This document shows positions 4,061 to 53,814 of a DNA stretch of 64,000 nucleotides, in pieces. The notes below the pieces were generated by a model. It had not been told where the DNA came from. It made no database searches and saw only the letters and a list, made by a program, of their open reading frames with translations. The DNA comes from Agromyces sp. ISL-38 (GTDB lineage Bacteria > Actinomycetota > Actinomycetes > Actinomycetales > Microbacteriaceae), in the NCBI RefSeq assembly GCF_018613935.1, contig NZ_JAGGPF010000001.1, positions 372,001 to 436,000 on the forward strand, written 5' to 3'. The translations under genes were made by a program, and so were the position numbers. Within the stretch, counting starts at the first letter, position 1; each line of letters starts with the position of its first letter.

Positions 4061-5773
4061 TTGATACGCAGAACTTCGAAACTGCTCGTCGCAGCCTCAC
4101 TCGCACTTGCCATGGTGGCCCTGCCGACCACAGCGCAGGCCCAGGAAGATGCCGACACCGCCCAGTTGTCCGCTCAGGAGCTCGTCGCGGCGATGCAGCC
4201 GGGCTGGAACCTCGGCAACACCCTCGACGCCATGTGCTGCGGCGAGGGCGATGACGAGACCGCGTGGGGCAACCCGCGCGTCGACAACACCTTTTTCCAG
4301 GACATCAAGGCCGAAGGCTTCAACTCGGTCCGCATCCCAGTCAGCTGGGGCAACCACACCGGCCCGGCGCCCGACTACATCGTCGAGCCCGAGACCATGG
4401 ATCGCGTGCAAGAGGTCGTCGATATGGCGCTCGACGCGAACCTCTACGTCATGATCAACACGCACCATGACTCATGGCAGTGGATCACGAACTTGGCCAA
4501 GCCAGAGAAGCACGACGAGGTCATGGCCCAGTACACCGCAACCTGGACCCAGATCGCGGACACCTTCAAGGACTACCCGCAGGAGCTGGTGTTCGAGCCG
4601 GTCAACGAGGTGGGCTTCGATGGCACCTGGTCCGGCGGGTCGGAAGCTGACCACCTGCTCATGGCCGAGCTGAACAGCTCATTCCACGAGATCGTGCGCC
4701 CCTCCGGCGGCAACAACGCCGACCGCCTGCTGGTTCTGCCGACACTCCATACCGGGGCCGACCAGGGCGACATGGACGCGCTCGCCGCCGAGATCGTGGC
4801 ACTCGACGACCCGATGCTGGCGGCCACCACCCACAACTACAGCTTCTGGCCCTTCAGCGTCAATGTCGCCGGGTACACGACGTACAACGAAGAGGTCCAG
4901 GACCTGCTGGTGGAGAACTTCCAGAGCCAGGTCGACACCTTCGTCTCCAAGGGCGTCCCGGTCATCATCGGGGAGTACGGCCTGCTCGACAACTCCGAGA
5001 ACAAGGTCGAGCGTGGCGAATCTCTGAAGTTCTTCGAGCACTTCGGCTACCTCGCCCGCACCACGGGCATCACGACAATGTGGTGGGACAACGGCACGCA
5101 CTTCGACCGCTACAAGCGCGTGTGGCGCGACCAAGAGCAGTTCGACTACATCTCCACTGCCTGGACCACGCGCTCAGCCACCGCCTCGTCCGACCTCGTG
5201 TTCGTCGACGCCTCGGACAAGGTCACGGACAAGTCGGTCACGCTGAACCTGAATGACCTCGAGTTCAAGGACCTCCGCTTCGGGAACAGCACGCTGAAGC
5301 CCGGGCCGGACTACACGCTCGAGGGCACCACGCTGACACTCAAGGCCAAGCTGCTGAAGCGCATCCTCGGCGACCGCGAGGTCGGCACCACCGCGCAGCT
5401 GAAGGTCCGCTTCTCCGACGGCATGCCGTGGAAGCTCAACGTGATCAGCTCAGAGGACCCGGTCATCGAAGGCGCCACCGGCGCCACCGATTCGCTGCTG
5501 ATCCCGGCGGCGTTCAACGGCGACCGGCTGGCCACGATGGAGTCCGTCTACGCTGACGGCACCGGGGCCGGGTACCACAACTGGACGATCTTCCCGGAGT
5601 TCTGGGACGATTTCAAGCCGGACTACGAGGGCGGGACCATCGAACTGACGAAGCGGTACCTGAACAGCATCACGGACGGCTCGCCGGTGTCCCTGACGTT
5701 CCACTTCTGGAGCGGCAAGACCCTCGAGTTCACGGTGACCCGCGACGGCACGGCCGTCACCGGCGTCGCCTGA
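4061..5773 (+). CDS. Secreted GH5 endoglucanase with X2-type module
   Basis: 570 residues. The start is TTG 4061, preceded by GGAAGGA at 4044-4050; the nearby ATG 4051 is out of frame. A Sec signal peptide (MIRRTSKLLVAASLALAMVA..., cleavage near AQA-QED, about residue 28) is followed by a GH5 barrel: QPGWNLGNTLDA, RIPVSWGNH, INTHHDSW, EPVNEVG with acid/base Glu183, and IIGEYGLL with nucleophile Glu305. From about residue 378 comes an X2-like Ig module (DLVFVDASDKVTDKSVTLNL...) and a further C-terminal beta region. It should hydrolyse beta-1,4-glucan outside the cell. A TTGACA at 3962-3967 may be a -35 box, but no convincing -10 was found. Strong hairpin after the stop. Confidence 0.92.
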   Translation: MIRRTSKLLVAASLALAMVALPTTAQAQEDADTAQLSAQELVAAMQPGWNLGNTLDAMCCGEGDDETAWGNPRVDNTFFQDIKAEGFNSVRIPVSWGNHTGPAPDYIVEPETMDRVQEVVDMALDANLYVMINTHHDSWQWITNLAKPEKHDEVMAQYTATWTQIADTFKDYPQELVFEPVNEVGFDGTWSGGSEADHLLMAELNSSFHEIVRPSGGNNADRLLVLPTLHTGADQGDMDALAAEIVALDDPMLAATTHNYSFWPFSVNVAGYTTYNEEVQDLLVENFQSQVDTFVSKGVPVIIGEYGLLDNSENKVERGESLKFFEHFGYLARTTGITTMWWDNGTHFDRYKRVWRDQEQFDYISTAWTTRSATASSDLVFVDASDKVTDKSVTLNLNDLEFKDLRFGNSTLKPGPDYTLEGTTLTLKAKLLKRILGDREVGTTAQLKVRFSDGMPWKLNVISSEDPVIEGATGATDSLLIPAAFNGDRLATMESVYADGTGAGYHNWTIFPEFWDDFKPDYEGGTIELTKRYLNSITDGSPVSLTFHFWSGKTLEFTVTRDGTAVTGVA

Positions 5774-5786
5774 CACACGAAAAACT

Positions 5787-5819
5787 CTTGGGGCGGTGCG
5801 AGCAACGCACCGCCCCAAG
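5787..5819. terminator. Bidirectional terminator between GH5 and SRPBCC genes
   Basis: Perfect 14-bp stem (5787-5800 with 5806-5819) and a 5-nt loop. On the minus strand the stem is followed by AGTTTTTCG, giving a classical intrinsic terminator for the SRPBCC/ArsR operon, while on the plus strand it closes the cellulase transcript. Confidence 0.85.
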
Positions 5820-5871
5820 GGCATTTCCGGACCGTGCCACGCATGCTGTTGCAGTCCTCCGATGATCCACT

Positions 5872-6354
5872 TCAGGCGCGCGTGAGGTACGCCTCGATGC
5901 GGTCGAATGCGCCGACCCACGCTTCGGTCTGGAAGAAGTCGCGGATCTCGGGCGTCGGGAACCCCGTCTGCTCGACGGTCACGAGGGTGCCGCCGTCGAG
6001 CGCCTCGAAGGTGACCTCGACCCTGGTCGACATGGTGGCGCCGCTCGGGTCGCTGCCGCTCGACTCGGTGACGAGTCGGTGCGGGCGGTCGATCTCGAGG
6101 AAGGTCTGGGTCTCGCGGAACAGGGTGTCGCGGTCGGGCCCCCATACGGCGGTCTGCTTGCCGCCGACGCGCAGGTCGACCTCGATCTCGACGATGCTCG
6201 GCTCCACATCGAGGATCGGATACCAGATCTTCTGCTTCTCAGCGTCGGTGTAGGCGTCGAAGACCTCCTCGGGTGTGGCGGGCAGTTGCCGCGTCATCCG
6301 CAGGCCGATGGTCTCGTCGGTCTGCGTCGACTGACCGGACTCGGTCTCGCTCAT
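5872..6354 (-). CDS. SRPBCC (AHSA1-type) domain protein
   Basis: 160 residues. Its ATG at 6354 overlaps the TGA of the upstream regulator (ATGA), indicating translational coupling. The sequence fits the START/AHSA1 fold: IGLRMTRQLPATPEEVFDAYTDAEKQKIWYP at the N-terminal strand-helix, central VGGKQTAVW, then EVTFEALDGGTLVTVEQTGFPTPEIRD and a final helix WVGAFDRIEAYL. Such proteins bind hydrophobic ligands, and pairs with an ArsR-type regulator are very common in actinobacteria. Ligand and enzymatic role are unknown. Confidence 0.85.
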   Translation of the reverse strand: MSETESGQSTQTDETIGLRMTRQLPATPEEVFDAYTDAEKQKIWYPILDVEPSIVEIEVDLRVGGKQTAVWGPDRDTLFRETQTFLEIDRPHRLVTESSGSDPSGATMSTRVEVTFEALDGGTLVTVEQTGFPTPEIRDFFQTEAWVGAFDRIEAYLTRA

Positions 6355-6686
6355 GATTCCATTCCTTTCCTGAGGGTGAAGTAGGCCTCGAGACCGTCGA
6401 GTCGACGCTCCCAGAGCCGCTGGTAGAAGGTGATCCATGCCATGGCGTCGTCCAAACGCTCGGTGCCGAGCTGGACCTGCCGAACCCGGCCGACCTTCTC
6501 GGTGGTGACGAGGCCCGCGGCCTCGAGCACGTCGACGTGCTTCCGGATGCCGGTGAGCGTCATGCCCGAGGGCTCGGCGAGCTCGGTGATCGTGGCAGGC
6601 CCGTCTCCGAGCCGGGTCAGGATGCCGCGGCGGGTCTCGTCGGCGAGGGCCGCGAACGCCCGATCCAATGTCTGTTGCTGAACCAT
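6351..6686 (-). CDS. ArsR-type winged-helix regulator
   Basis: 111 residues, starting at ATG 6686. The winged helix is plain: FAALADETRRGILTRLGDGPATITELAEPSGMTLTGIRKHVDVLEAAGLV. It contains no cysteine, so it is not a thiol metal sensor. It is the first gene of an operon with the SRPBCC gene. Its start codon lies inside a palindrome built from CTGAAC/GTTCAG half-sites, and the -10 box ends only 7 nt upstream, so the mRNA is probably leaderless and the gene autoregulated. This sub-family usually controls the coupled SRPBCC gene (established association); the signal is unknown. Confidence 0.87.
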   Translation of the reverse strand: MVQQQTLDRAFAALADETRRGILTRLGDGPATITELAEPSGMTLTGIRKHVDVLEAAGLVTTEKVGRVRQVQLGTERLDDAMAWITFYQRLWERRLDGLEAYFTLRKGMES

Positions 6687-6722
6687 GTGGTTCAGTATAT
6701 GACACTGAACCCGGAAGTTCAA
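6678..6722 (-). promoter_or_regulatory. Leaderless promoter with four-half-site operator
   Basis: On the minus strand TTGAAC (6717-6722) and TATACT (6694-6699) are 17 bp apart, and the expected transcription start coincides with ATG 6686. Half-sites CTGAAC/GTTCAG occur four times in alternating orientation: 6678-6683, 6690-6695, 6705-6710 and 6717-6722 (last one GTTCAA). The first pair forms the perfect palindrome CTGAACCATGTGGTTCAG over the start codon. This looks like the operator of the ArsR-type regulator. Confidence 0.7.
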
Positions 6723-6809
6723 TGATGCCCCGATGGTCGAGTTCCGACCCAACGTTTTCCGGCCGTCGCACGTCTCAGAGGGTAAGGGCACCTTCGGGAT
6801 GGAGACGAC

Positions 6810-7400
6810 ATGACGAGCATGACGAGCGATCACGGCCGACGTCGTGGCCTTGGCTTCGCGACCCTCGCGGTCCTCGCCGGGCTCCTGGCGAGCGGCTGCG
6901 CGCAGAATGCACCCGACGGCCCTGGAGCGAACGCGCCCGACCGCCCCGAGGCCCAGCTCCATGAGGCCATCGACTGCCAGTCGGAGCCGAGCTCCCTGCT
7001 GCCGAACGCGGAGGAGCCCACCGCCGACCCGTCGATTCCGGTGCCTGGCCGGGTACCCGAGGGGTTCGAGGCAACTGCTGCCGTTCGCTGTTCCGTCGAA
7101 TTCGGCGAGCCTGGTGAGGCCGGCGACGAGATGGAGGTCTTCTGGCTGGTCGAACGCTTCGAAGGCGACCTCGGGCCGCTGCTCGAAGCCCTCGCGGTGG
7201 CCGATGACGTGCCACCCGAGGGGCTCATGTGCACTGCCGACATGGAGATGGTGCCGCCGCTCTGGCTCGAGGCCCGATCCGGTGGGTTCGTGCCCGTGCA
7301 CTATCCGCGCGACGGCTGCGGCAAGACGAAGCCGGCGGTGCACGATGCGCTCGACGGCCTGCAGGTCACGATGGTCGAGCGGCTCCCGGTGGTTGAGTAG
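6810..7400 (+). CDS. Putative lipoprotein of unknown function
   Basis: 196 residues from ATG 6810 (GGAGACGAC just upstream; ATG 6819 is an alternative). An arginine-containing N-terminus and hydrophobic stretch lead to a lipobox LASGC with Cys30, predicting a lipid-anchored extracytoplasmic protein. The mature part is acidic and proline-rich, with cysteines near 58, 93, 145 and 172 that could form disulfides. I recognise no domain. The last codons (PVVE, stop) fall inside a dispersed GTGGTTGAGTAGC repeat that supplies the stop codon. Confidence 0.7.
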   Translation: MTSMTSDHGRRRGLGFATLAVLAGLLASGCAQNAPDGPGANAPDRPEAQLHEAIDCQSEPSSLLPNAEEPTADPSIPVPGRVPEGFEATAAVRCSVEFGEPGEAGDEMEVFWLVERFEGDLGPLLEALAVADDVPPEGLMCTADMEMVPPLWLEARSGGFVPVHYPRDGCGKTKPAVHDALDGLQVTMVERLPVVE

Positions 7401-42326: not shown

Positions 42327-44087
42327 TCAGCCCGCGACGTCGGTTGCGCGCTCGATCTTCGCGACCGCCAGGGGAGTGAGCCGAAGGGAGTGGAGCTCGG
42401 TGACCCCGTCGACCGACTCGATCGAGAGTCCATTCGCGCCCGGCGCACCGAACACAAGGCTCGAGAGTGCGGACTCCCCGCCGTTCACGAACACCTCCAC
42501 CGAGGAGGCGTCCACGATCACGTCGAGGGTGACGACGCCGTCACGAACCGGCGCGGGAGCCGAGCGCGTTTCGCGGTAGACGGGCGGCATATCGGCGGCC
42601 GCGGCATCCGCGTCCCGTGTGACGAACGCGACGCCAGCCTCGAAGTCGACGCCGACCGTGGCGAACGAGCCGTCGCCCTCCTTGATGCGGACCCGCACCT
42701 CCGATGCCGGGTCGCGCGGATCGGGTGCGACCTCGAGGCGGAGCCGGTAGGCGTCGGAGCTCGGCTGGGGGAGTCGTGCGCCTGCGGCATCCGGTGCGGC
42801 ATCCGTCACGCGAAGATCGGTGCGGGTCTCAGCTTCGCCCTCGAGCGACTCGAGCGCGCCGGCAGGCGTCGAGACGAGTGTCGCCTTACCGTCGACGGTG
42901 CGGAGCCCGATCTCGCGCACGATCGAATCGGCGCCGCCCTGCCAGTCGTCGGTCGGGAGGTCGCCGGCGTACGCCCAGTTGTTCAGCCAGCCGATCGCGT
43001 AGCGGGAGGCGAGCCGCTCGGCCTCGGGCAGGCGAGGGTCGTCCCAGGTGACAGTCGCGTAGAAGTCGGCGCCGCGATCGAGCCATGCGGGCTCCTCATC
43101 GTCGGCGACGAACGATGTTCCGTCCCACTCGCCCGTCCAGTAGGCGGTGCCCGTCGTCATGCCATGCTCGCCGCCGTTGACGCCGGCCGCGAGCACCCAC
43201 TTCGTGTTCGAGGGATCGCCGTCGACCGACATCTCGAACAGGTCGGGGCACTCGAGAATGCCGAGGTCGCCTCGCGCGAACGCCGAGCGGAAGGTCCAGT
43301 CCTTCAGGTCGGGTGACGCGTAGAACCCGACCTTGTCGCCCTCGGCGAGCACCATGAGCCACTCGCCGCTCGCGTCATCCCAGATGATCTTGGGATCGCG
43401 CCAGTGGGCTTCGCCTGGGTTGTCCATCACCGGGTTGCCGTCGTACGGCTCGAAGCTGAAGCCGCCGTCGGTCGAGACGAAGAGCGACTGCCGCTGCACG
43501 CCCTCGAGCTGCTGGGTCATGATGGCGATGACGGCGCCGGCACCGAAGCCGGCGGTGTTCTCGGTGTCGATCACGGCGCTGCCGGTCTCGATGTCGCCGA
43601 GACCGTTCTGGTACTTCTCGATCGCGACGCCCTCCTCGCGCCAGTGCACGAGGTCGGTGGAGGTCGCGTGGTACCACTCGGTGCCGTTCCCGTCGGGGTA
43701 GTCGGCGTTGTAGAGGTAGTAGTAGTGCCAGCGCCCATCGAGCCAGAACGGCCGCTGCGGATCGTTCATCCAGCGCTCACCGGGGGTGAGGTGCACCGCC
43801 GGGCGGTACGGCGACCAGTCGGCGGGGCGGGTGTACTCGGGCTCGGGGGCGGCGGATGCCTCGGGCGTCGGCGCGGGGGCGCCCGAACGGCCGCCCGAGG
43901 CCAGCACGAGTGCGAGCACCACGCCGGTGGCCGCCGCGACCGCGACGATCACCCAGGTGAGCGATCGCGGCCACCGTCGAGCGCGCAAGCGCGCACGCAC
44001 AGCCGAGATCCACAGGGTGGATCTCGGACGCTTCCGCGCACGCTCAGCCGCGCCGGGCGGCGCGTCGCGTGGCTGTGCTGGGTTCAT
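42327..44087 (-). CDS. Membrane-anchored GH32 beta-fructosidase
   Basis: 586 residues from ATG 44087 (GGAAG 5 nt upstream). A basic cytoplasmic head and one helix (about 43-64, LTWVIVAVAAATGVVLALVLAS) predict type II anchoring with the enzyme outside. GH32 catalytic triad: Asp109 in RWMNDPQRP, Asp231 in HWRDPKI, and acid/base Glu279 in LECPDLF. A C-terminal beta-sandwich carries VDASSVEVFVNGGESALSSLVF. Probably a levanase, inulinase or sucrose-cleaving enzyme; WMNDPQRP rather than WMNDPNG is slightly unusual. Promoter at 44219-44247. Confidence 0.9.
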   Translation of the reverse strand: MNPAQPRDAPPGAAERARKRPRSTLWISAVRARLRARRWPRSLTWVIVAVAAATGVVLALVLASGGRSGAPAPTPEASAAPEPEYTRPADWSPYRPAVHLTPGERWMNDPQRPFWLDGRWHYYYLYNADYPDGNGTEWYHATSTDLVHWREEGVAIEKYQNGLGDIETGSAVIDTENTAGFGAGAVIAIMTQQLEGVQRQSLFVSTDGGFSFEPYDGNPVMDNPGEAHWRDPKIIWDDASGEWLMVLAEGDKVGFYASPDLKDWTFRSAFARGDLGILECPDLFEMSVDGDPSNTKWVLAAGVNGGEHGMTTGTAYWTGEWDGTSFVADDEEPAWLDRGADFYATVTWDDPRLPEAERLASRYAIGWLNNWAYAGDLPTDDWQGGADSIVREIGLRTVDGKATLVSTPAGALESLEGEAETRTDLRVTDAAPDAAGARLPQPSSDAYRLRLEVAPDPRDPASEVRVRIKEGDGSFATVGVDFEAGVAFVTRDADAAAADMPPVYRETRSAPAPVRDGVVTLDVIVDASSVEVFVNGGESALSSLVFGAPGANGLSIESVDGVTELHSLRLTPLAVAKIERATDVAG

Positions 44088-44218
44088 GATCTTCCGTCGT
44101 GGTTCGCGCACCGCCGACGCTCAAGCCCGCTTGCGAGGCGGGTCCGTCGAAATCGGCGGCGCGCCTTCGCAGCTGTCTGTTGGGAGAAGCGCAAGCGCCA
44201 CTCGAGGAATCGAGGGCC

Positions 44219-44465: not shown

Positions 44466-44546
44466 GTGAACACATCACACCGTGCATCGAGCACGCCGCA
44501 TCCAGGTCGCGCCGTGCGCATGCCGGCGACCCCATTCGCGGGCTGA
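44466..44546 (+). CDS. Possible 26-residue leader peptide
   Basis: GTG 44466 preceded by AGGGGAG at 44451-44457, an 8-nt spacing; ends at TGA 44546. The product (VNTSHRASSTPHPGRAVRMP...) has no hydrophobic stretch and three Arg and three Pro codons. Its place in the long leader of levansucrase suggests translational control, but it may equally be chance. Confidence 0.3.
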   Translation: MNTSHRASSTPHPGRAVRMPATPFAG

Positions 44547-44777
44547 CGACGCACCACGACTCCCGGTCGATCGGCTGACGCCGAACGGCTCGGGCACTGC
44601 GGAGCCGGACGCCGTGATCGCGACCACGTACGGTCGCGGCATCCGTCACCGCAATCGCCGCGCACGCCGCGGCGATCCACGGATGGTCCCCGCGTTGGGG
44701 AGCCCGTCCACCAATTCGACGGACGCACAGTCCGCCGGATGCCGACTGCGCGCGGCCTCGGCCACGGCCATCTCCGT

Positions 44778-44792
44778 GGGACATCGGATGTC
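44778..44792. promoter_or_regulatory. Palindrome GGACATCGGATGTCC upstream of levansucrase
   Basis: Perfect 7-bp arms around a central G, 47 nt before the levansucrase start. Its GACAT/ATGTC half-sites resemble the TGACAwCGwTGTCA operator of the fructan LacI protein but with one extra base between them, so it may be a variant site or another factor's operator. Confidence 0.4.
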
Positions 44793-44838
44793 CGCGAGAT
44801 GGGCCGCAGTCGGTTCGTTCACCACGAAAGGCGAGTAC

Positions 44839-46425
44839 ATGTCAACACCCACTCGGCGCTTCAAGCGCCTGATCGTCGGAGGAGTGGTCACGACCGGAGC
44901 ACTGGTCGCGACCCTCTTCACCGGCACGGCGGGAGCCGTCGCGGCCCCGGATGTGCAGCCCGGCCCGGAGCCCACCGTGCACACCCAGGAGGCGTACGCA
45001 CCCGAGGACGACTTCACCTCGAAGTGGACCCGCGCAGATGCACGTCAGCTCGCGCGGTTGTCGGACCCGAATGCGGCCCCGCGCGAGAACTCGATGCCGG
45101 CCTCCCTCACCATGCCGGAGGTGCCGAAGGACTTCCCCGACATGTCGAACGGCGAGGTCTGGGTCTGGGACACCTGGCCGCTGACCGATGAGGACGGCAA
45201 CCAGTACAGCGTCAACGGCCAGGAGATCATCTTCTCCCTCGTGGCCGACCGCAGCCTCGGCTTCGATGACCGCCACGTCTTCGCGAAGATCGGCTACTTC
45301 TTCCGTCCGGCCGGCATTCCGGCCGAGGAGCGGCCCGAGAACGGCGGCTGGACCTACGGCGGGCTCGTCTTCGACGAGGGCGTGACCGGCCAGATCTTCG
45401 AGGACCAGTCGTACAGCCACCAGACCCAGTGGTCGGGATCAGCGCGCATCATGAAGGGCGGCGAGATCAAGCTGTTCTTCACGGATGTCGCCTTCTACCG
45501 TGACGCCGCCGGAAACGACGTCAAGCCGTACGACCCGCGCATCGCGCTCAGCACCGGCAAGGTGCACGCCAACCAGAACGGCGTGAAGCTCACGGGCTTC
45601 GACAAGGTCACCGACCTCCTCCAGGCCGACGGCACGTACTACCAGACCGGCGCGCAGAACCCGTTCTTCAACTTCCGCGACCCGTTCACCTTCGAGGACC
45701 CGGCGCACCCGGGCGAGACCTACATGGTCTTCGAGGGCAACTCGGCCATGCCGCGCGAATCCGCTCAGTGCAGTGAGGAGGACCTCGGGTACCGCGAGGG
45801 CGACCCGTACGCCGAGACCGTCGAGGAGGTCAATGCCTCGGATGCGACCCTGAACATCGGGAACATCGGCCTCGCGAAGGCGAAGAACGACGACCTCACC
45901 GAGTGGGAGTTCCTGCCGCCGATCCTCTCGGCGAACTGCGTCACCGACCAGACCGAGCGGCCGCAGTTCGTGTTCAAGGACGGAAAATCCTACCTGTTCA
46001 CGATCAGCCACCGCAGCACGTTCGCGGAGGGCCTCGACGGACCCGAGGGCGTGTACGCCTTCGTCGGCGACGGCATCCGAAGCGACTTCCAGCCGCTGAA
46101 CAGCGGTTCGGGCCTGGCGCTCGGCAATCCGACGAACCTGAACTTCGGCGGTGGCCAGCCGTTCGCGCCCGACTTCAACCAGCACCCCGGTCATTTCCAG
46201 GCGTACTCGCACTACGTCATGCCGGGTGGGCTGGTGCAGTCGTTCATCGACACCATCGGCACGAGCGACGACTTCGTGCGCGGCGGCACGCTCGCCCCGA
46301 CCGTGAAGATCGACCTCGATGGTGACAGCAGCGCCGTGGACTACTCCTACGGCAACGGCGGGCTCGGCGGCTGGGCCGACATCCCGGCCAACATCGCCGT
46401 CAATCCGGGCGGCAAGGTGCAGTAG
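44839..46425 (+). CDS. Secreted GH68 levansucrase
   Basis: 528 residues from ATG 44839 with GAAAGGCGAG upstream. A Sec signal peptide (LIVGGVVTTGALVATLFTGTAGAVAA, cleavage about residue 36) leads to a GH68 five-blade propeller. Catalytic residues: nucleophile Asp111 in VWVWDTWPL, transition-state stabiliser Asp281 in FRDPFTF, and acid/base Glu373 in TDQTERPQ. It would transfer fructose from sucrose to levan or other fructosides. The flanking GH32 genes hydrolyse fructan, so synthesis and breakdown are encoded side by side. Followed by two overlapping hairpins. Confidence 0.94.
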   Translation: MSTPTRRFKRLIVGGVVTTGALVATLFTGTAGAVAAPDVQPGPEPTVHTQEAYAPEDDFTSKWTRADARQLARLSDPNAAPRENSMPASLTMPEVPKDFPDMSNGEVWVWDTWPLTDEDGNQYSVNGQEIIFSLVADRSLGFDDRHVFAKIGYFFRPAGIPAEERPENGGWTYGGLVFDEGVTGQIFEDQSYSHQTQWSGSARIMKGGEIKLFFTDVAFYRDAAGNDVKPYDPRIALSTGKVHANQNGVKLTGFDKVTDLLQADGTYYQTGAQNPFFNFRDPFTFEDPAHPGETYMVFEGNSAMPRESAQCSEEDLGYREGDPYAETVEEVNASDATLNIGNIGLAKAKNDDLTEWEFLPPILSANCVTDQTERPQFVFKDGKSYLFTISHRSTFAEGLDGPEGVYAFVGDGIRSDFQPLNSGSGLALGNPTNLNFGGGQPFAPDFNQHPGHFQAYSHYVMPGGLVQSFIDTIGTSDDFVRGGTLAPTVKIDLDGDSSAVDYSYGNGGLGGWADIPANIAVNPGGKVQ

Positions 46426-47485: not shown

Positions 47486-50431
47486 TCAACCGGCGACCCG
47501 CACGACGAGGTCGCCCCCGTCGGTGGTGCCGGCCGAGTTCTCGAGCTCGACCGTGTAGTGATGCTCGCCTGGAGCGGCATCCGTGATCGCGAACTTCACC
47601 ACGCGATCCGAGTCGGAGCTGCGGTACACGCGGTCGATCACGCGGCCGTCCTCGAGCAGCCGAACCACGGTCGTGGGCTCGCCGCGACCGACCTTCACCT
47701 TGACGACGAAGTCGCCGTCGGCGTCGGGGCCGCGCTTCGGCCCGGTGAGCGCCGACACCTCCGCGGTGGGCGGCGGGGCCGTCGCGCCGTCGACGCCCGC
47801 TTCCTTGTACATCGCACCGTGCATCGGCGTGACGGTGAGCGACTCGAGCGTCGCGCCCTCGCCCTCGGCCCAGAGGCCGATCGCATCGGCGCCCGCGTTC
47901 GGGAACACCTGGTCGGTGATCGTCGTGCGTCCGTCGCCCGAGAACACCTCGACCGACGAGCGGTCGACGTACACGGTGAGGGCGAGGCGCCCGTCGTCGA
48001 GCACAACCGGCGCGTCGTCGAGTGAGGCGAACGCGGGGTGGAAGCCCGTGTTCCCCGAGTCACGGCGATCGACGAAGAGGCGAGCGGATGCCGCGTCGTA
48101 CCCGATCCGCGTCGCCGACTCGTCGTCGCCGAGCACGCTGAGCCCGACCGCCTCGGCATCGCCCGGCGCGATCACCGCGTCGATGCGCAGGACCTCGCCC
48201 TCGACGGGGAGCGTCTCGGAACCCGACGCGATGGGCCGCGAGGCATCCGTGTACGCGAGTTCGGTCTGCTCGAGCTCGCCGAACTCGGGCACGACCTCCT
48301 GCACGAGACGCGGACCGCGCGCGGTCGAGACGAGCGACACCTCGCGGGGCAGTGCCATCGCGCTCCGCCACGAACCGGTGGGGATGTCGTTGGCGTAGTC
48401 CCAGTTGTTCATCCAGCCGAGCATCACGCGGCGGTCGTCGGGCGCGTTGCTGAACGAGACCGTCGCGTAGTAGTCACGGCCCCAGTCGAGCCAGTCGTAG
48501 CCCTCGATGCGCGGTGCGGCCGGGGCATCCGAGAACATCACCTCGTCGGCGAGCACGTGACCCCAGCCGAAGCGGTTGTTGTCGACGATGCGAACGGATG
48601 CATCGTGGCCGACGAACTCCGACACGTCCCACGATGTCCAGTCGAGGCTCTCGCTGTTCCGGCCGGTCGCGGAGCGCACGATCTCGCCGTCGACGACGAG
48701 GTTCACCGACGTCTCCTCGGAGCGAGCCTGCGCGGGCTCCGCTCCGAGCACGAGGTGGTCGAGGGTGAGGTGCCCCCAGCCGCCCGTCGCGTCGTCGTGC
48801 ACGCGGAAGCGCGCGTCGCGACCCGCGAACTCGGCGACATCCCACGACTGCCAGTTGAGCTGGCCGGCCTCGGGACCCGTCGCGGTGCGCACGACCTCGC
48901 CGTCGACGAGGAGCTGCACCTCGAGGGTGCCGTTGAAGCGCTTGCCGCCTCCGAGAAGGAACGAGAGGTGTTCCCCGCCGTCGGCGATCGTGAACGGCGG
49001 CGAGGTCAGGTCGCCGCGGTTGTCGTCACCGAACGGCCCGCCCTCCCAGGTGTTGATGCGCTTCTGGCCGATGACGTAGTCGCCGCCCTGCGTGGAGGGG
49101 TTGCGCGACGGGTCGATCGCGAGGTCGCCGGTCGCCTCCCATCCCGTGTCGGCGAGGGTCGTGCCGTCGGCGAACTCGAAGCCGTCGAACAGCAAGCGCC
49201 CCGCGGGCGGCTCGTTGCCGAGCTGCGTGCCGTCGACGTGCGGGTGGTTGCCGCCGCCGACGAGCAGGTTCACGTAGTCGTCCTCGATCGTGAAGGCGGG
49301 CGATTCCATCGTGCCCACAGGCCAGTCGTGGTCGGCGAAGCCGTTCACGAGGCCGGCGCCGATGAAGCCCGAAACGGGATTCTGGCCGGGGAGCGTGCCC
49401 GTGGCCGGGGCATCCGTCCACGGTCCGTTCGCCCAGTTGCCCGGCTCGTTGGCGACGGTCCAACCCTCGTAGGTGCCGTCGTTGAACCCGGCGAAGAGCT
49501 CGCCGGCCGGCACCGCGTCATCCGACACCGTGCTCTCCGAGGTGAAGGTCGTGCCGTCGAACTCGCCGACGAAGTACTGGCCGCCCGAGCCGCCCGCGAC
49601 CGAGCCGGGGTTGAGGTTCACGACCATGACCCACTTCGTGTTCGCCGGATCGCCGTCGACCGCGAGCGGGAACAGGTCGGGGCACTCCCAGATGCCGCCC
49701 TTCGCGTTGGCCGGACCGAAGTCGCTGAGGTGGGTCCAGGTCTTCAGGTCGTCGCTGCGATACAGCACGACCTTGTACTGCAGTGCCTCGACCGCCACCA
49801 TAACCCAGTACGCCTCGCCGGTCTCGGGGTCGGTGTACCGGATCACCTTCGGGTCCCGGAAGTTCGCCGAATCGCGGTCGATCACGGGGTTGCCCTCGAA
49901 CTTCGTCCATGTCTGGCCGTCGTCGGTGCTGTAGGCGAGCGACTGCGCCTGCTCGCCCGCGTGCGTCGGATGCGCCGGGGTGTACGCGCTCGTGTAGATC
50001 GCGACCATCGGGGGATTCTCGGCGGTGCCGAAGCCGCTCGTGTTGCCCTCGTCGACCACGACCGAGCCCGAGAAGATGTCCTCGATCGCGACGCCCTGCT
50101 CGTCGAAGGTCTGCGGGATCGCGACTGGCTGCTCCTCCCAGTGCGCGAGGTCGGTGCTCGTCGCGTGGCCCCAGCTCATGTTGCCCCAGCGGGTGCCGTA
50201 CGGGTTGTGCTGGAAGAAGAGGTGCCAGGTGCCGTCGTCGTAGACGAGGCCGTTCGGGTCGTTCATCCAGTTGCGTTCCGGTGTGAAGTGCAGGCGCGGG
50301 CGGTACTGCTCCGCGGCCGGGTCGGGCCCGGCCTCCTCGGCCATCGCGGGCACGGCCGCCAATGTGCCCAGCGAGAGTGCCGCAACGGCGACCGCCGCGG
50401 CGGCGTTCCGCCAGCGTGTTTTGCTCGTCAT
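47486..50431 (-). CDS. Large secreted GH32 fructan hydrolase with nested beta-sandwich insertion
   Basis: 981 residues from ATG 50431; a longer in-frame ATG at 50470 lies over the operator. Signal peptide residues 1-31 (cleavage near AMA-EEA). GH32 propeller: nucleophile Asp58 in NWMNDPNG, Asp193 in FRDPKVI, acid/base Glu249 in IWECPDLF. Between propeller segments, residues about 311-635 form an insert: a GW/GGGNHP...VNLVVDG...SWDVSEF...GWGH module that is split by a second copy (about 406-572). The propeller resumes at YDWLDWGRDYYATVSF, followed by the GH32 C-terminal sandwich (YVDRSSVEVFSGDGR) and a C-terminal Ig-like domain (about 895-981). Probably an extracellular levanase or inulinase. 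Confidence 0.93.
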   Translation of the reverse strand: MTSKTRWRNAAAAVAVAALSLGTLAAVPAMAEEAGPDPAAEQYRPRLHFTPERNWMNDPNGLVYDDGTWHLFFQHNPYGTRWGNMSWGHATSTDLAHWEEQPVAIPQTFDEQGVAIEDIFSGSVVVDEGNTSGFGTAENPPMVAIYTSAYTPAHPTHAGEQAQSLAYSTDDGQTWTKFEGNPVIDRDSANFRDPKVIRYTDPETGEAYWVMVAVEALQYKVVLYRSDDLKTWTHLSDFGPANAKGGIWECPDLFPLAVDGDPANTKWVMVVNLNPGSVAGGSGGQYFVGEFDGTTFTSESTVSDDAVPAGELFAGFNDGTYEGWTVANEPGNWANGPWTDAPATGTLPGQNPVSGFIGAGLVNGFADHDWPVGTMESPAFTIEDDYVNLLVGGGNHPHVDGTQLGNEPPAGRLLFDGFEFADGTTLADTGWEATGDLAIDPSRNPSTQGGDYVIGQKRINTWEGGPFGDDNRGDLTSPPFTIADGGEHLSFLLGGGKRFNGTLEVQLLVDGEVVRTATGPEAGQLNWQSWDVAEFAGRDARFRVHDDATGGWGHLTLDHLVLGAEPAQARSEETSVNLVVDGEIVRSATGRNSESLDWTSWDVSEFVGHDASVRIVDNNRFGWGHVLADEVMFSDAPAAPRIEGYDWLDWGRDYYATVSFSNAPDDRRVMLGWMNNWDYANDIPTGSWRSAMALPREVSLVSTARGPRLVQEVVPEFGELEQTELAYTDASRPIASGSETLPVEGEVLRIDAVIAPGDAEAVGLSVLGDDESATRIGYDAASARLFVDRRDSGNTGFHPAFASLDDAPVVLDDGRLALTVYVDRSSVEVFSGDGRTTITDQVFPNAGADAIGLWAEGEGATLESLTVTPMHGAMYKEAGVDGATAPPPTAEVSALTGPKRGPDADGDFVVKVKVGRGEPTTVVRLLEDGRVIDRVYRSSDSDRVVKFAITDAAPGEHHYTVELENSAGTTDGGDLVVRVAG

Positions 50432-50472
50432 TGTTTGGTTTCGCCCTTCATTGCGCGATGCCGATGCCATGA

Positions 50473-50590: not shown

Positions 50591-51535
50591 TCAGCTCGGG
50601 TAGACCGGATCGTGCGCAGGCTTGCGAAGCAGTGCGCCCTCGTGGCGAACGGTCGCCGCGGCGATCGTCATCGCCTCGTGGAGCGCCGTCTCCCAGTCGA
50701 TCGTGGTCTGCGGGAGGCCGCGCTCCGCGACGTGCTGCACGATCGCCGAGAGGGTCGCATCGCCGGCTCCCATCGTGTCGACCACCGGCCCGGAGAGCTC
50801 GACGATGCCGGCGTGCACCACGAGCCGGCCGTCATGCACGGTCGCGCCCTCGCGACCGGCGGTCGCGAGGATCGCGGGCCCGAAGCCCGGCGCGGTGTCG
50901 GCCTCGGCATCCCGGCTGAGCCGGGCGACGAACGCGTCGAGCGAGTCGCCGAGCAACAGCTCGGCGTCTTCATCGCCGACTTTCGCGAGCAGGGCACGCG
51001 AGGCGAAATCCTCGAAGTTCTCGAGGAACGCGGCGCGATCGGCGAGCATGCCGGCCCGTGGATTGCCGTCGACGACGACCCGCTCCTCGGGCCGCGCGAT
51101 CGCGCCGACGAGCTCGGCATACTGCGCGGCATTGTCGAAGGGGAAGCAGCTCACGACGACGAGGTCGGCCTCGTCGAGCGCGGCTCGGGTCGCGTTGTCG
51201 AAGCGGATGCTCCGGTGCTGTGCCGCTTCGTTGAACTCGTATCGCGGCTCGCCGTCGGTGCGATCGGAGATCGCCCGAGAGGTGCCGAGCGCCGATGGGC
51301 TCTCGACGAGCCTCACACCGTAGTCGTCGAGGTACGAGCGGATGCGCCCGGCCGACTCGTCGTCGCCGAGCATCGCGACGAGGGTCACGTCTTGGCCGAG
51401 GAGCGCGAGTCCGACGGCGACGTTGAGCGCGGCGCCGCCCACGAACTCGCGCGACCCGTGGGGATCGCGAAGCTCGTCGATGAGTGCGTCGCCGACGACG
51501 GTGATCCGCTGCGTCGATTGAGCTGGGTGGGTCAT
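50591..51535 (-). CDS. PfkB-family fructokinase
   Basis: 314 residues from ATG 51535, 3 nt after the LacI gene, so both share a transcript. PfkB features: FVGGAALNVAVGLALLGQDVTLVAMLGDDESG-type N-terminal motif, and VVDTMGAGDATLSAIV with the catalytic Asp. Its setting (LacI regulator, frcBCA importer, GH32) makes fructose the likely substrate, giving fructose 6-phosphate. Assignment to fructose is inference from context. Confidence 0.87.
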   Translation of the reverse strand: MTHPAQSTQRITVVGDALIDELRDPHGSREFVGGAALNVAVGLALLGQDVTLVAMLGDDESAGRIRSYLDDYGVRLVESPSALGTSRAISDRTDGEPRYEFNEAAQHRSIRFDNATRAALDEADLVVVSCFPFDNAAQYAELVGAIARPEERVVVDGNPRAGMLADRAAFLENFEDFASRALLAKVGDEDAELLLGDSLDAFVARLSRDAEADTAPGFGPAILATAGREGATVHDGRLVVHAGIVELSGPVVDTMGAGDATLSAIVQHVAERGLPQTTIDWETALHEAMTIAAATVRHEGALLRKPAHDPVYPS

Positions 51536-51538
51536 CCG

Positions 51539-52597
51539 TCAGCCTTCCTGGCGTGGTGGGATCTCGCCCGAACCGCGCTCGATCAGTCGCGTCGGGACGA
51601 TGGTGCGGGCGGCGGGGGAGCTGTCGCCGTCGAGCCGGGCGAACACGCGCTCGGCGGCGATGCGGCCGATCTCCTGCGGGTTCTGCGCGACGACGGTGAT
51701 GCCGGGTTCGAGCAGGTCGGCGAGCGGAACGTCGTCGAAGCCGACGAGGGCCGTGTCGCGATGCCGGCCGAGTTCGCGGAGCGCGTGGATGACGCCGATC
51801 GTCACGATGTTCTGGCTGCTGAAGATCGCGGTCGGCGGAGTGGGGGAGTCGAAGAGCGTGAGCGTCGCGAGACGGGCGGACTCCGCATCGTGGAGGCCCT
51901 CGACGACGGGCACATCGCGTGTCGCGACGCCGAAACGGCCGAGTTCGTCGAGGAAGCCCTGGCGGCGTTCGCGAGCGGTGCGGATGAAGGCCTTGTCGCC
52001 GAGGTAGGCGACGCGCCGGTGCTCGCGCTCGAGCAGGTGCCGGGTGGCGAGCGCGGCGCCGTCGTAGTTGTCGCTCACGACGGAGTCGGAGGTGATGCCG
52101 GCGGGCTCGCGGTCGACGAAGACCACGGGCGTGCCGCGCCGGAGCTCGGGTGCGAGGTAGGCCTGGCTCTCGGAGATGGTCGTGAGGATGAGGCCGTCGA
52201 CGCGGCGCCGGAGGAACGCCGACACCGCGGCCTGTTCGCGGTCGGGGTCGTCGTCGAGGCTCGAGGCGAAGACCGAGACGCCGCGCTCGAGGGCGACATC
52301 TTCGACGGCGCGATGCACGGCGCCGGCGAACGGGTTGTCGACACTGCCGACCAGGAGACCGAGCGTGCGCGTGCGTCCGTCGGCACGCCGCAGGTTCCCG
52401 GCGTGCAGGTCGGGCTCGTAGTCGAGCGTGCGGGCCGCGGCGATGACCTTGGCGATGGTCGCTGCCGAGACGTTCGGCTCGTTGTTGATGACGCGCGAAA
52501 CGGTCTTCACGCCGACGCCGGCGAGTGCCGCGACCTGCCGCATCGTCGGCCGGCGGGACCCGTGAGCCGCGGAATTCTGCTCTGACAACGGTGTCAC
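51539..52597 (-). CDS. LacI-family regulator of the fructan locus
   Basis: 352 residues. GTG 52597 is chosen because GGGGAG lies 6 nt upstream; a TTG at 52618 lacks a site. Helix-turn-helix and hinge: RRPTMRQVAALAGVGVKTVSRVINNEPNVSAATIAKVIAAARTLDYEPDLHAGNLR, then a sugar-binding sensor domain with IFSSQNIVTIGVIHALRELGRHRDTALVGFDDVPLADLL. An operator-like sequence, TGACAACGGTGTCA (52583-52596), covers its start codon, so it is probably autoregulated. Predicted targets are frcBCA, the large GH32 gene and the 39-codon ORF; the inducer is likely fructose or a phosphate of it. Confidence 0.92.
   Translation of the reverse strand: MTPLSEQNSAAHGSRRPTMRQVAALAGVGVKTVSRVINNEPNVSAATIAKVIAAARTLDYEPDLHAGNLRRADGRTRTLGLLVGSVDNPFAGAVHRAVEDVALERGVSVFASSLDDDPDREQAAVSAFLRRRVDGLILTTISESQAYLAPELRRGTPVVFVDREPAGITSDSVVSDNYDGAALATRHLLEREHRRVAYLGDKAFIRTARERRQGFLDELGRFGVATRDVPVVEGLHDAESARLATLTLFDSPTPPTAIFSSQNIVTIGVIHALRELGRHRDTALVGFDDVPLADLLEPGITVVAQNPQEIGRIAAERVFARLDGDSSPAARTIVPTRLIERGSGEIPPRQEG
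52583..52596. promoter_or_regulatory. LacI operator over its own start codon
   Basis: TGACAACGGTGTCA is a 12-of-14 palindrome and fits the TGACAwCGwTGTCA consensus of the other three sites with a single difference (13 of 14 against the reverse complement). It overlaps GTG 52597. Confidence 0.65.
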
Positions 52598-52625
52598 AAT
52601 TTGCTCCCCAATGTGCAATCTGGAC

Positions 52626-52675
52626 TTGACTGTACATGAGGAAAGAGGCTAGACCTAGATATGACATCGTTGTCA
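52626..52675 (+). promoter_or_regulatory. frcB promoter and LacI operator
   Basis: TTGACT (52626-52631), 18 bp, TAGACC (52650-52655), with the operator TGACATCGTTGTCA at 52662-52675 over the expected transcription start. A weaker related sequence (GACAACGGTCAC) follows at about 52678-52689. Confidence 0.78.
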
Positions 52676-52713
52676 GGGCGACAACGGTCACCCACACAAG
52701 AGGAGATTCATCG

Positions 52714-53814
52714 ATGAATCACGCAGCACCCGGCGCACTCCGTCGCCGACTCATCACGGCAGGCTCGCTCACCGCGGTCGCCGCTCTCGCCTTCACCGGA
52801 TGCGCGTCCTCGGGCGGCGGCGGCGACACCGCAGGCGGCGATGACGAGAACATCAGCGTCTCGCTCATCACGAAGACGAGCACCAACCCGTTCTTCGTCG
52901 CCATGCAGAAGGGCGCCGAAGACGCCGCCGACGAACTCGGCGTGGAGCTCACGTTCGCCGCAGGCAAGGAGGACGGCGACGAGGACACCCAGATCCAGGC
53001 CATCGAGAACGCCATCTCCAAGGGCGACGCCGGCATCCTGATCACGCCGAACGGCCCCGCCGTCGAAGACGCGCTCGTGAAGGCACGCGACGCCGGCCTC
53101 TACGTCATCGCACTCGACACCCCGCCCACCGACCCGGAGTCGGTGGACATCACGTTCGCGACCGACAACTTCCTCGCCGGCCAGGAGATCGGCAAGTGGA
53201 CCGCCTCGAAGCTCGGCGGCGAGAAGGCCACTATCGCGCTCATCGACCTCTTCGACGACAAGGTCGTCTCGGTCGACTACAACCGCGACCAGGGCTTCCT
53301 CGATGGCATGGGCATCGACCCCGCCGATCCTGAGGTCAACGGCGACGAGGCCGCTACCGGCAAATACAGCGGCGGCGACTACGAGATCGTCGGCAACGAA
53401 GTGTCTGGTGGTGCCGAGGACGGCGGCCGCACCGCGGCCGAGACCCTCCTGAGCAAGAACCCCGACATCAACGTCGTGTACACGATCAATGAGCCGACGG
53501 CCTACGGCGCGTACGAGGCCTTCAAGGCCGCAGGCACCACCGACGGCCTCATCGTCGTGTCGGTCGATGGCGGCTGCGCGGGCGTCGACGCCGTGTCCGA
53601 AGGCATCATCGGCGCGACGAGCCAGCAGTACCCGGTCAAGATGGCCCAGCTCGGCGTGCAGGCGATCCACGACCTCGTGAAGACCGGCGAGGTGCCCGAG
53701 ACCACCGAGGGCCTCGACTTCTACAACACGGGTGTCGCGCTCGTGACCGACGACCCCCAGGAGGGCGTCGAGTCGATCGACACCACCGAGGGCAGCGAGA
53801 TCTGCTGGGGCTAG
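52714..53814 (+). CDS. frcB: Fructose-type ABC transporter substrate-binding lipoprotein
   Basis: 366 residues from ATG 52714 with AGAGGAGA upstream. Lipobox FTGC with Cys30 and a Gly/Ser-rich spacer, then a type I periplasmic binding fold of the RbsB/FrcB group: VSLITKTSTNPFFVAMQKGAEDAADELGVELTFAAGKEDGDEDTQIQAIENAISKGDAGILITP and VVSVDGGCAGVDAVSEGIIGATSQQYPVKMAQLG. It should capture fructose or another monosaccharide at the membrane. Its operator and the linked fructokinase support fructose. A large hairpin separates it from the permease gene. Confidence 0.9.
   Translation: MNHAAPGALRRRLITAGSLTAVAALAFTGCASSGGGGDTAGGDDENISVSLITKTSTNPFFVAMQKGAEDAADELGVELTFAAGKEDGDEDTQIQAIENAISKGDAGILITPNGPAVEDALVKARDAGLYVIALDTPPTDPESVDITFATDNFLAGQEIGKWTASKLGGEKATIALIDLFDDKVVSVDYNRDQGFLDGMGIDPADPEVNGDEAATGKYSGGDYEIVGNEVSGGAEDGGRTAAETLLSKNPDINVVYTINEPTAYGAYEAFKAAGTTDGLIVVSVDGGCAGVDAVSEGIIGATSQQYPVKMAQLGVQAIHDLVKTGEVPETTEGLDFYNTGVALVTDDPQEGVESIDTTEGSEICWG

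Follow-up and report, generated by a model that had tools for sequence, protein, structure and literature searches.

A beta-sandwich module probably nested within a second copy of itself in the catalytic domain of an Agromyces GH32 fructanase

The GH32 gene and its insert

We analysed a stretch of 64,000 nucleotides from Agromyces sp. ISL-38 (contig NZ_JAGGPF010000001.1, positions 372,001 to 436,000; hereafter the window), in which a gene for a family GH32 enzyme carries a large insert within its catalytic propeller. This insert very probably consists of a beta-sandwich module interrupted by a complete second copy of the same module. The gene has 994 codons, and the likely start is the second ATG, at 50431, which gives a protein of 981 amino acids (aa) with a signal peptide as judged by eye. 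Residues are numbered here on the 994 codons and are offset by 13 from those of a preliminary description of the locus, because the latter counted from the second Met; the interval 48527-49501 (minus strand) thus corresponds to residues 324-648 here and to 311-635 of the 981-aa form. The features of the gene are as follows, the half-modules being delimited by pairwise scores, alignment and half-module profiles.

47486-50470, minus strand: nested GH32 gene, 994 codons, Pfam GH32N and GH32C
49520-50290, minus strand: GH32 catalytic domain, first part, residues 61-317, motifs WMNDPNG, FRDPK and WECPD
49241-49501, minus strand: N1, outer module first half, residues 324-410
48713-49216, minus strand: stretch in the outer-module loop (linkers and whole inner copy), residues 419-586, absent from the single-copy relatives L163, L165, L166, L268, L281a and L281b
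48938-49195, minus strand: N2, inner module first half, residues 426-511
48743-48925, minus strand: C2, inner module second half, residues 516-576
48527-48712, minus strand: C1, outer module second half, residues 587-648
48266-48514, minus strand: GH32 catalytic domain, second part, residues 653-735, from the match to PDB 8i12 and GH32 profiles
47828-48247, minus strand: GH32 C-terminal beta-sandwich, residues 742-881, Pfam GH32C

Judged by its sequence, the window protein is a GH32 fructanase, predicted to be a secreted fructan hydrolase. Both Pfam domains scored over their cut-offs (GH32N, 310.1 bits against 22.1; GH32C, 111.6 against 21.9), and the catalytic triad D71, D206 and E262 (in WMNDPNG, RDP and ECP, with the motif roles as stated in the available part of PMC7545266) is invariant in all 55 sequences of our alignment A3. 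For this alignment, L096, L107 and L116 were dropped from 80 named loci as too short and 14 more as over 93% identical to another; removal of 9 of the remaining 63 by hand left 54, to which the window protein was added. The propeller had been described as interrupted at about residues 311-635 of the 981-aa protein, and this was borne out, since the GH32N match is broken into two stretches and the match to the closest solved relative by sequence, the GH32 exo-inulinase InuAMN8 (8i12) of the same catalytic family and fold, is likewise split, residues 37-317 and 653-880 corresponding to 16-288 and 295-520 of the chain. The insert places 335 residues where 8i12 has six, and it is flanked by the blade 4 strand ending in FVGEFDG and the blade 5 strand starting with WLDWGRDYYA. 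Separately, the C-terminal tail of the protein (about residues 893-994; 47489-47794) may be Ig-like, with a sub-threshold Pfam match (E 0.058).

Comparison of the halves confirmed the order N1-N2-C2-C1 between residues 317 and 653, in which an outer module, N1 plus C1, would hold a whole inner copy, N2 plus C2, in a loop; the preliminary description had given this order of first half, full second copy and second half with correct coordinates. C1 and C2 scored 165 against each other (shuffles, 24.7±5.0; 0 of 1000 as high) and the joined outer halves scored 210 against the joined inner halves (shuffle mean, 34.1; 0 of 1000 as high). N1 against N2 reached 56, a weak score in the window protein (shuffles, 30.3±6.0; 1 of 1000 as high), and all four comparisons of an N half with a C half were at noise level (1000 shuffles each). 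The break in the outer module has a fixed position, with LLVGGGNHP on one side and VNLVVDG on the other; the outer halves lie 176 residues apart in the window protein, and successive half-modules are separated in the alignment by 15, 4 and 10 residues. Since the shared core motifs are kept in both copies, both are probably folded.

Relatives with zero, one and two copies

A scan of 135 loci with half-module and GH32 profiles yielded 139 open reading frames (ORFs) with at least one half-module. The nested order N, N, C, C in the GH32 blade loop (G1-N-N-C-C-G2-G3) was found in 107 of them, a count that holds duplicates (L009 and L046, for example) because the unnamed-genome and named-contig collections overlap. 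Other GH32s were nested at the C-terminus (4) or had a single module in the blade loop (3), at the C-terminus (3) or at the N-terminus (1); ORFs without a GH32 match had single copies (11), tandem pairs (4) or triple tandems (2), and four ORFs were other or incomplete. L268, L281a and L281b (single, blade loop) and L282 (nested) were additions beyond the 139. No triple nesting occurred among the architectures listed in the 135-locus scan and in the one that added L268. GH32s with zero copies are represented by 8i12 and by the second GH32 gene of the window locus, so that homologues with zero, one and two copies, all envisaged in the preliminary description, were found.

The single-copy relatives provide the strongest argument for nesting. 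Six GH32s carry one module at the same blade site, and its halves adjoin, with a gap of 7-8 residues in L163, L165 and L166 and of 2-5 residues in L268, L281a and L281b. In the nested proteins the gap between the halves of the inner copy has a median of 6, and the linkers flanking that copy have medians of 16 and 9. The nested signature occurs at one breakpoint: the N piece stops at module position 81-85, a complete module follows, and the C piece starts from 76-82. With adjoining halves at the same site in single-copy relatives, the best reading is the one first proposed, and the catalytic domain very probably encloses a module that in turn encloses a second copy of itself.

From the linear order alone, the insert might also be a pair of successive domains, N1N2 and then C2C1, or a single larger domain without repeats, and the similarity of N1 and N2 in the window protein is modest. 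However, relatives show complete modules in which the C half comes straight after the N half, both in GH32 (at this site and at the C-terminus) and in other enzymes; neither N-N alone nor C-C alone was present among the listed architectures (the frame-split L096 being read as one gene), and we consider either arrangement extremely unlikely. The same N-N-C-C order would be expected, too, had the N half and the C half been duplicated separately in tandem, with no insertion of a whole module. Such a history needs two coordinated events, whole modules are inserted or appended elsewhere, and in most proteins both halves share one outer or inner assignment; it is in our judgement very unlikely. The assignments come from outer and inner half profiles built from 25 nested proteins and scored on copies outside that set. 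Both halves scored as outer in 81 of 81 held-out outer copies and as inner in 77 of 81 held-out inner copies. The blade-site singles were outer in both halves (3/3, L268 and L281 being outside the scoring) and the C-terminal singles inner in both (3/3), with small margins, about 2-12 bits and in some cases no more than 2-8, for the C halves of single modules.

Genome scans indicate that the nested layout is widely shared among actinobacteria, common and conserved, and not peculiar to the window protein. From at least 496 relatives in named genomes (592 candidate stretches) the best 80 were kept, and these, being chosen as best, lean toward the window type: 78 are complete nested GH32s, two of these beside another nested one, and the remaining two are split over two frames or lack the last domain. 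Genera represented include Agromyces, Microbacterium, Arthrobacter, Rathayibacter, Nocardioides and Kocuria. Across genome samples that overlap, the insert was matched in 31 of 299 genomes of the family, and the module profile in 30 of 396 genomes of the order (26 of the 396 with the nested signature), 29 of 394 of the class and 4 of 396 in the phylum sample. A scan of viral contigs gave 25 pattern matches and no relative. A frame or assembly artefact was considered and rejected, because the layout recurs in independent genomes.

The pair is also found outside the catalytic domain, nested at the C-terminus of a divergent GH32 group (L164, L175, L176, L177). Four hosts other than GH32 were tested by Pfam, and three proved to be GH116 (two with a tandem pair, one with a single copy) and one GH81. 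In all four the module is preceded by a stretch that matches the initial part of the N-terminal domain; this match is below the cut-off in the GH81 host (L181), and a second GH116 N-domain stretch is present in all three GH116 hosts. Other long hosts are GH81-like by eye. On these sequences the architecture is conserved and evolutionarily labile, occurring outside the catalytic domain as well and, single or in tandem, in other enzyme families.

Several individual loci are recorded here. L169, L170, L171 and L172 have two tandem module copies that are not nested, L169 and L170 being GH116 by Pfam, and L173 is a GH116 relative with one copy. L181 and its look-alikes L178-L180 and L182-L185 are GH81-type with a single module downstream of the beginning of the N-terminal domain (only L181 was checked by Pfam), and three of the look-alikes gave mixed outer/inner profile scores. 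L271 contains an ORF of 1682 aa in which two distant tandem module copies lie between two GH32-like regions. A distant module subfamily (NPSFETGDLTGW...GGWGHLN) occurs, single or in tandem, in L188, L189, L190 and L191, with a GH32 match in the same ORF for L188 and L190 and none for L189 and L191. A Catenovulum adriaticum plasmid (Gammaproteobacteria) carries two single-copy blade-site GH32 genes (L281:1445-3496 and 5089-7176) beside SusC/SusD-like genes. An Actinomyces oris plasmid (L282:3095-5926) encodes a GH32 of 943 aa (WP_271289540.1) in which the nested pair occupies this blade site too, with an insert 37.3% identical to that of the window protein and a C-terminal sortase-type signal (by eye); the protein may resemble the known Actinomyces levanase LevJ.

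Predicted structure, covariation and history

An AlphaFold2 model of residues 50-892, built with the 55-sequence alignment, had a mean predicted local distance difference test score (pLDDT) of 87.9 and a predicted template modelling score (pTM) of 0.79, and it contains the five-bladed propeller and C-terminal sandwich of GH32. Foldseek returned 8i12 as the top match with a template modelling (TM) score of 0.92, normalised to 8i12 and with the insert looped out, from which the propeller would close around the insert. Strands of the outer copy after the GGG strand of N1 (E350-357 / E538-544, E547-552, E557-566, E574-581, E590-598; model numbering) are mirrored in the inner copy (E452-458 / E467-473, E476-481, E490-495, E503-510, E520-527), and the N-half strands of the two copies correspond less closely. 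A structure prediction had been suggested in the preliminary description as the means of comparing the copies, and it succeeded in part, giving a confident model and a like series of strands in the second half of both copies; the pairing of the halves came from elsewhere. Foldseek against viral proteins ranked three GH32-like proteins above sandwich-rich hits with low TM scores and was uninformative on the module.

Covariation was examined between the halves. The 20 best pairs learned on N1xC1 had a mean z of 1.04 in N2xC2 versus 0.30 and 0.33 in the crossed combinations, and the 20 best learned on N2xC2 had 0.56 in N1xC1 versus 0.03 and 0.34. Among these best pairs covariation agrees with the pairing of N1 with C1 and of N2 with C2, and we take this as a hint only.

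Several results weigh against this pairing. When 60 pairs were learned on N1xC1 the contrast faded (0.51 versus 0.42 and 0.48), the whole N1xC1 and N2xC2 maps correlate with each other at 0.05, no more than crossed maps do (-0.02 to 0.09), and the set held few sequences, 84 of 134 after redundancy, with an effective number (Neff) of about 31. A model of the insert alone, computed without an alignment, was poor (pLDDT 47.2), and in the C-terminal nested proteins the inner C half was slightly more outer-like in 3 of 4. Which halves pack together is deduced from the sequence comparison, the weak covariation and the trees.

The module tree was computed with 28 nested proteins picked for redundancy; the module set excluded L190 and the two-piece L096. 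All outer copies and the blade-site singles fell on one side of a branch (support 88/77), and all inner copies and the C-terminal singles grouped together (77/84); neither grouping is strongly supported. The C-terminal outers fall with the inserted outers (88/77), the C-terminal inners group with four inserted inners (99/87, starred), and the two GH32 groups, blade-site nested and C-terminal nested, are far apart in host trees. These placements favour a history in which the nesting arose a single time and the pair then passed as one piece, in either direction, between the blade site and the C-terminus of GH32 groups, which is compatible with the nested architecture. However, a single clade of all C-terminal modules, as separate local nesting would produce, was not rejected (p-value of the approximately unbiased test, p-AU, 0.127), and the other alternative clade was not rejected either (p-AU 0.071); we give the single origin an even chance.

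In the GH32 host trees the single-copy proteins appeared among the nested ones in two places in one tree and in three in another. The later host trees excluded L188, L195 and L205, and the three-place tree also omitted L002, L009, L012, L050, L057 and L059. A tree uniting the four single-copy rows was barely not rejected (p-AU 0.052), and in the three-place tree the Catenovulum singles hang on a long branch (1.09) whose fork the tree does not resolve. Among GH32s the inner copy has probably been lost or gained more than once. If the root is assumed to lie at the C-terminal group, the nested form would be the simpler ancestral state and the inner copy would have been lost at least twice.

Module identity, locus and putative role

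Pfam gave no convincing match for any of 17 module sequences, and CBM_35 was not matched in the whole window protein at E up to 1. In hhalign the module profile aligned with CBM35, a carbohydrate-binding module (CBM) family, at a probability of 45% and a score of 30.1 over module columns 36-141; 60 column shuffles had a mean of 12.9 and a maximum of 18.7, and GH32 controls scored 17.0 (sandwich) and 15.9. The comparison used 14 CBM35 rows, and dropping L224 (misread) and L242 (stop) had changed the score from 30.3 to 30.1. The module profile had eight weak matches, at E up to 10, among sequences of solved structures. Two were records of a bean alpha-amylase inhibitor (0.0029 and 0.0036), three belonged to GH66 CITase (0.067-0.094) and one to a phage protein (0.07), with two more besides. 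The module profile leans weakly toward CBM35, which we treat as a lead, not as membership.

The following genes lie around the nested GH32 gene, and an ORF with an ABC-transporter ATPase match also adjoins.

42327-44111, minus strand: second GH32 gene, without the insert
44482-46425, plus strand: GH68 levansucrase-type gene
50591-51535, minus strand: PfkB-family sugar kinase
51539-52618, minus strand: LacI-family regulator
52636-53814, plus strand: periplasmic-binding-protein-type sugar-binding protein

These neighbours are consistent with a levan or sucrose-fructan locus; the available part of PMC8325422 describes a levansucrase-levanase cluster from a termite-associated Cellulosimicrobium.

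We propose that the outer beta-sandwich module takes the place of the blade 4-blade 5 loop of the propeller and is interrupted in turn by a further complete module of its kind. N1 and C1 would fold together into one jelly roll, and N2 and C2 into another. The chain ends may lie close to the loop ends, which would allow the module to be accommodated in loops both of other enzymes and of further copies of itself. Together the two copies could form two stacked carbohydrate-binding-like arms beside the active-site funnel, and these might keep levan or inulin chains in place for cleavage in the catalytic pocket. The loop that bears the insert joins the ECP-bearing part to the part with a WQY-type tryptophan, a residue that lines the pocket in yeast exo-inulinase according to the available part of PMC7545266. 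A comparable arrangement is offered by GH66 CITase (PDB 3wnk-3wnp), whose chain has a weak likeness to our module profile (E 0.07-0.09) and in which a jelly-roll module is also placed in the catalytic domain; in the portion of PMC5408701 at hand, this inserted CBM35 forms outer subsites together with the catalytic cleft and affects product size, but it is one copy and not nested, in a TIM barrel instead of a propeller, and the substrate is alpha-glucan instead of fructan.

A number of observations count against such a role. With Pfam matches admitted up to E 10, CBM35 turned up in one of the 17 modules, below the cut-off (E 0.024), and a better E value (0.0075) went to TsaE, an unrelated family. 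An earlier hhalign control, in which CBM35 was aligned with GH32C, gave a score of 21.8, and no CBM35 likeness was apparent in the distant module subfamily (score 20.7, 4.9%). The position of inter-blade loops on the active-site face is taken from the general topology of GH32 enzymes and propellers, and no binding residues were pinpointed in the module; fructan binding beside the active site is putative. The module might instead be a structural spacer, a stabilising part or a contact to the cell wall or to proteins, without carbohydrate binding, in keeping with the weak CBM35 likeness and with hosts that act on different substrates (GH32, GH81, GH116). All identified hosts, however, are glycoside hydrolases, the profile leans to a CBM family, and an inserted CBM supplies subsites in GH66 (PMC5408701, in the part available); we regard the spacer as possible, at clearly less than even odds. 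A substrate-holding role of the nested pair is slightly short of an even chance by our estimate, and to the whole explanation, nested architecture plus fructan-holding arms in a levan or fructose locus, we assign a rough probability of 0.7.

Domain insertions are usually described between different folds. CBM38 comprises the inulin-binding modules of cycloinulo-oligosaccharide fructanotransferase. CBM38 and CBM66 are, like the proposed arms, accessory modules of fructanases, CBM66 being N-terminal in a Lactobacillus GH32 in the accessible part of PMC11382395. The nested module was not described in the open-licence literature searched, which is weak evidence of absence as part of the searching returned nothing.

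The module is common in actinobacteria without a convincing Pfam match, and zero, one, tandem and self-nested copies occur within one family, inside and outside the catalytic domain. Because natural homologues are close enough to compare, the origin of self-nesting and the effect of an extra arm on long fructans can be tested. More tentatively, and with odds against it, the module might be a serial inserter, a jelly roll able to settle in loops of catalytic domains unrelated to one another and, at a fixed hairpin, in modules of its own kind, with the self-nested unit moving whole and the inner copy switched in and out repeatedly to tune polymer binding near the active site; if so, its hosts would be the GH32 propeller and the N-terminal domains of GH81 and GH116.

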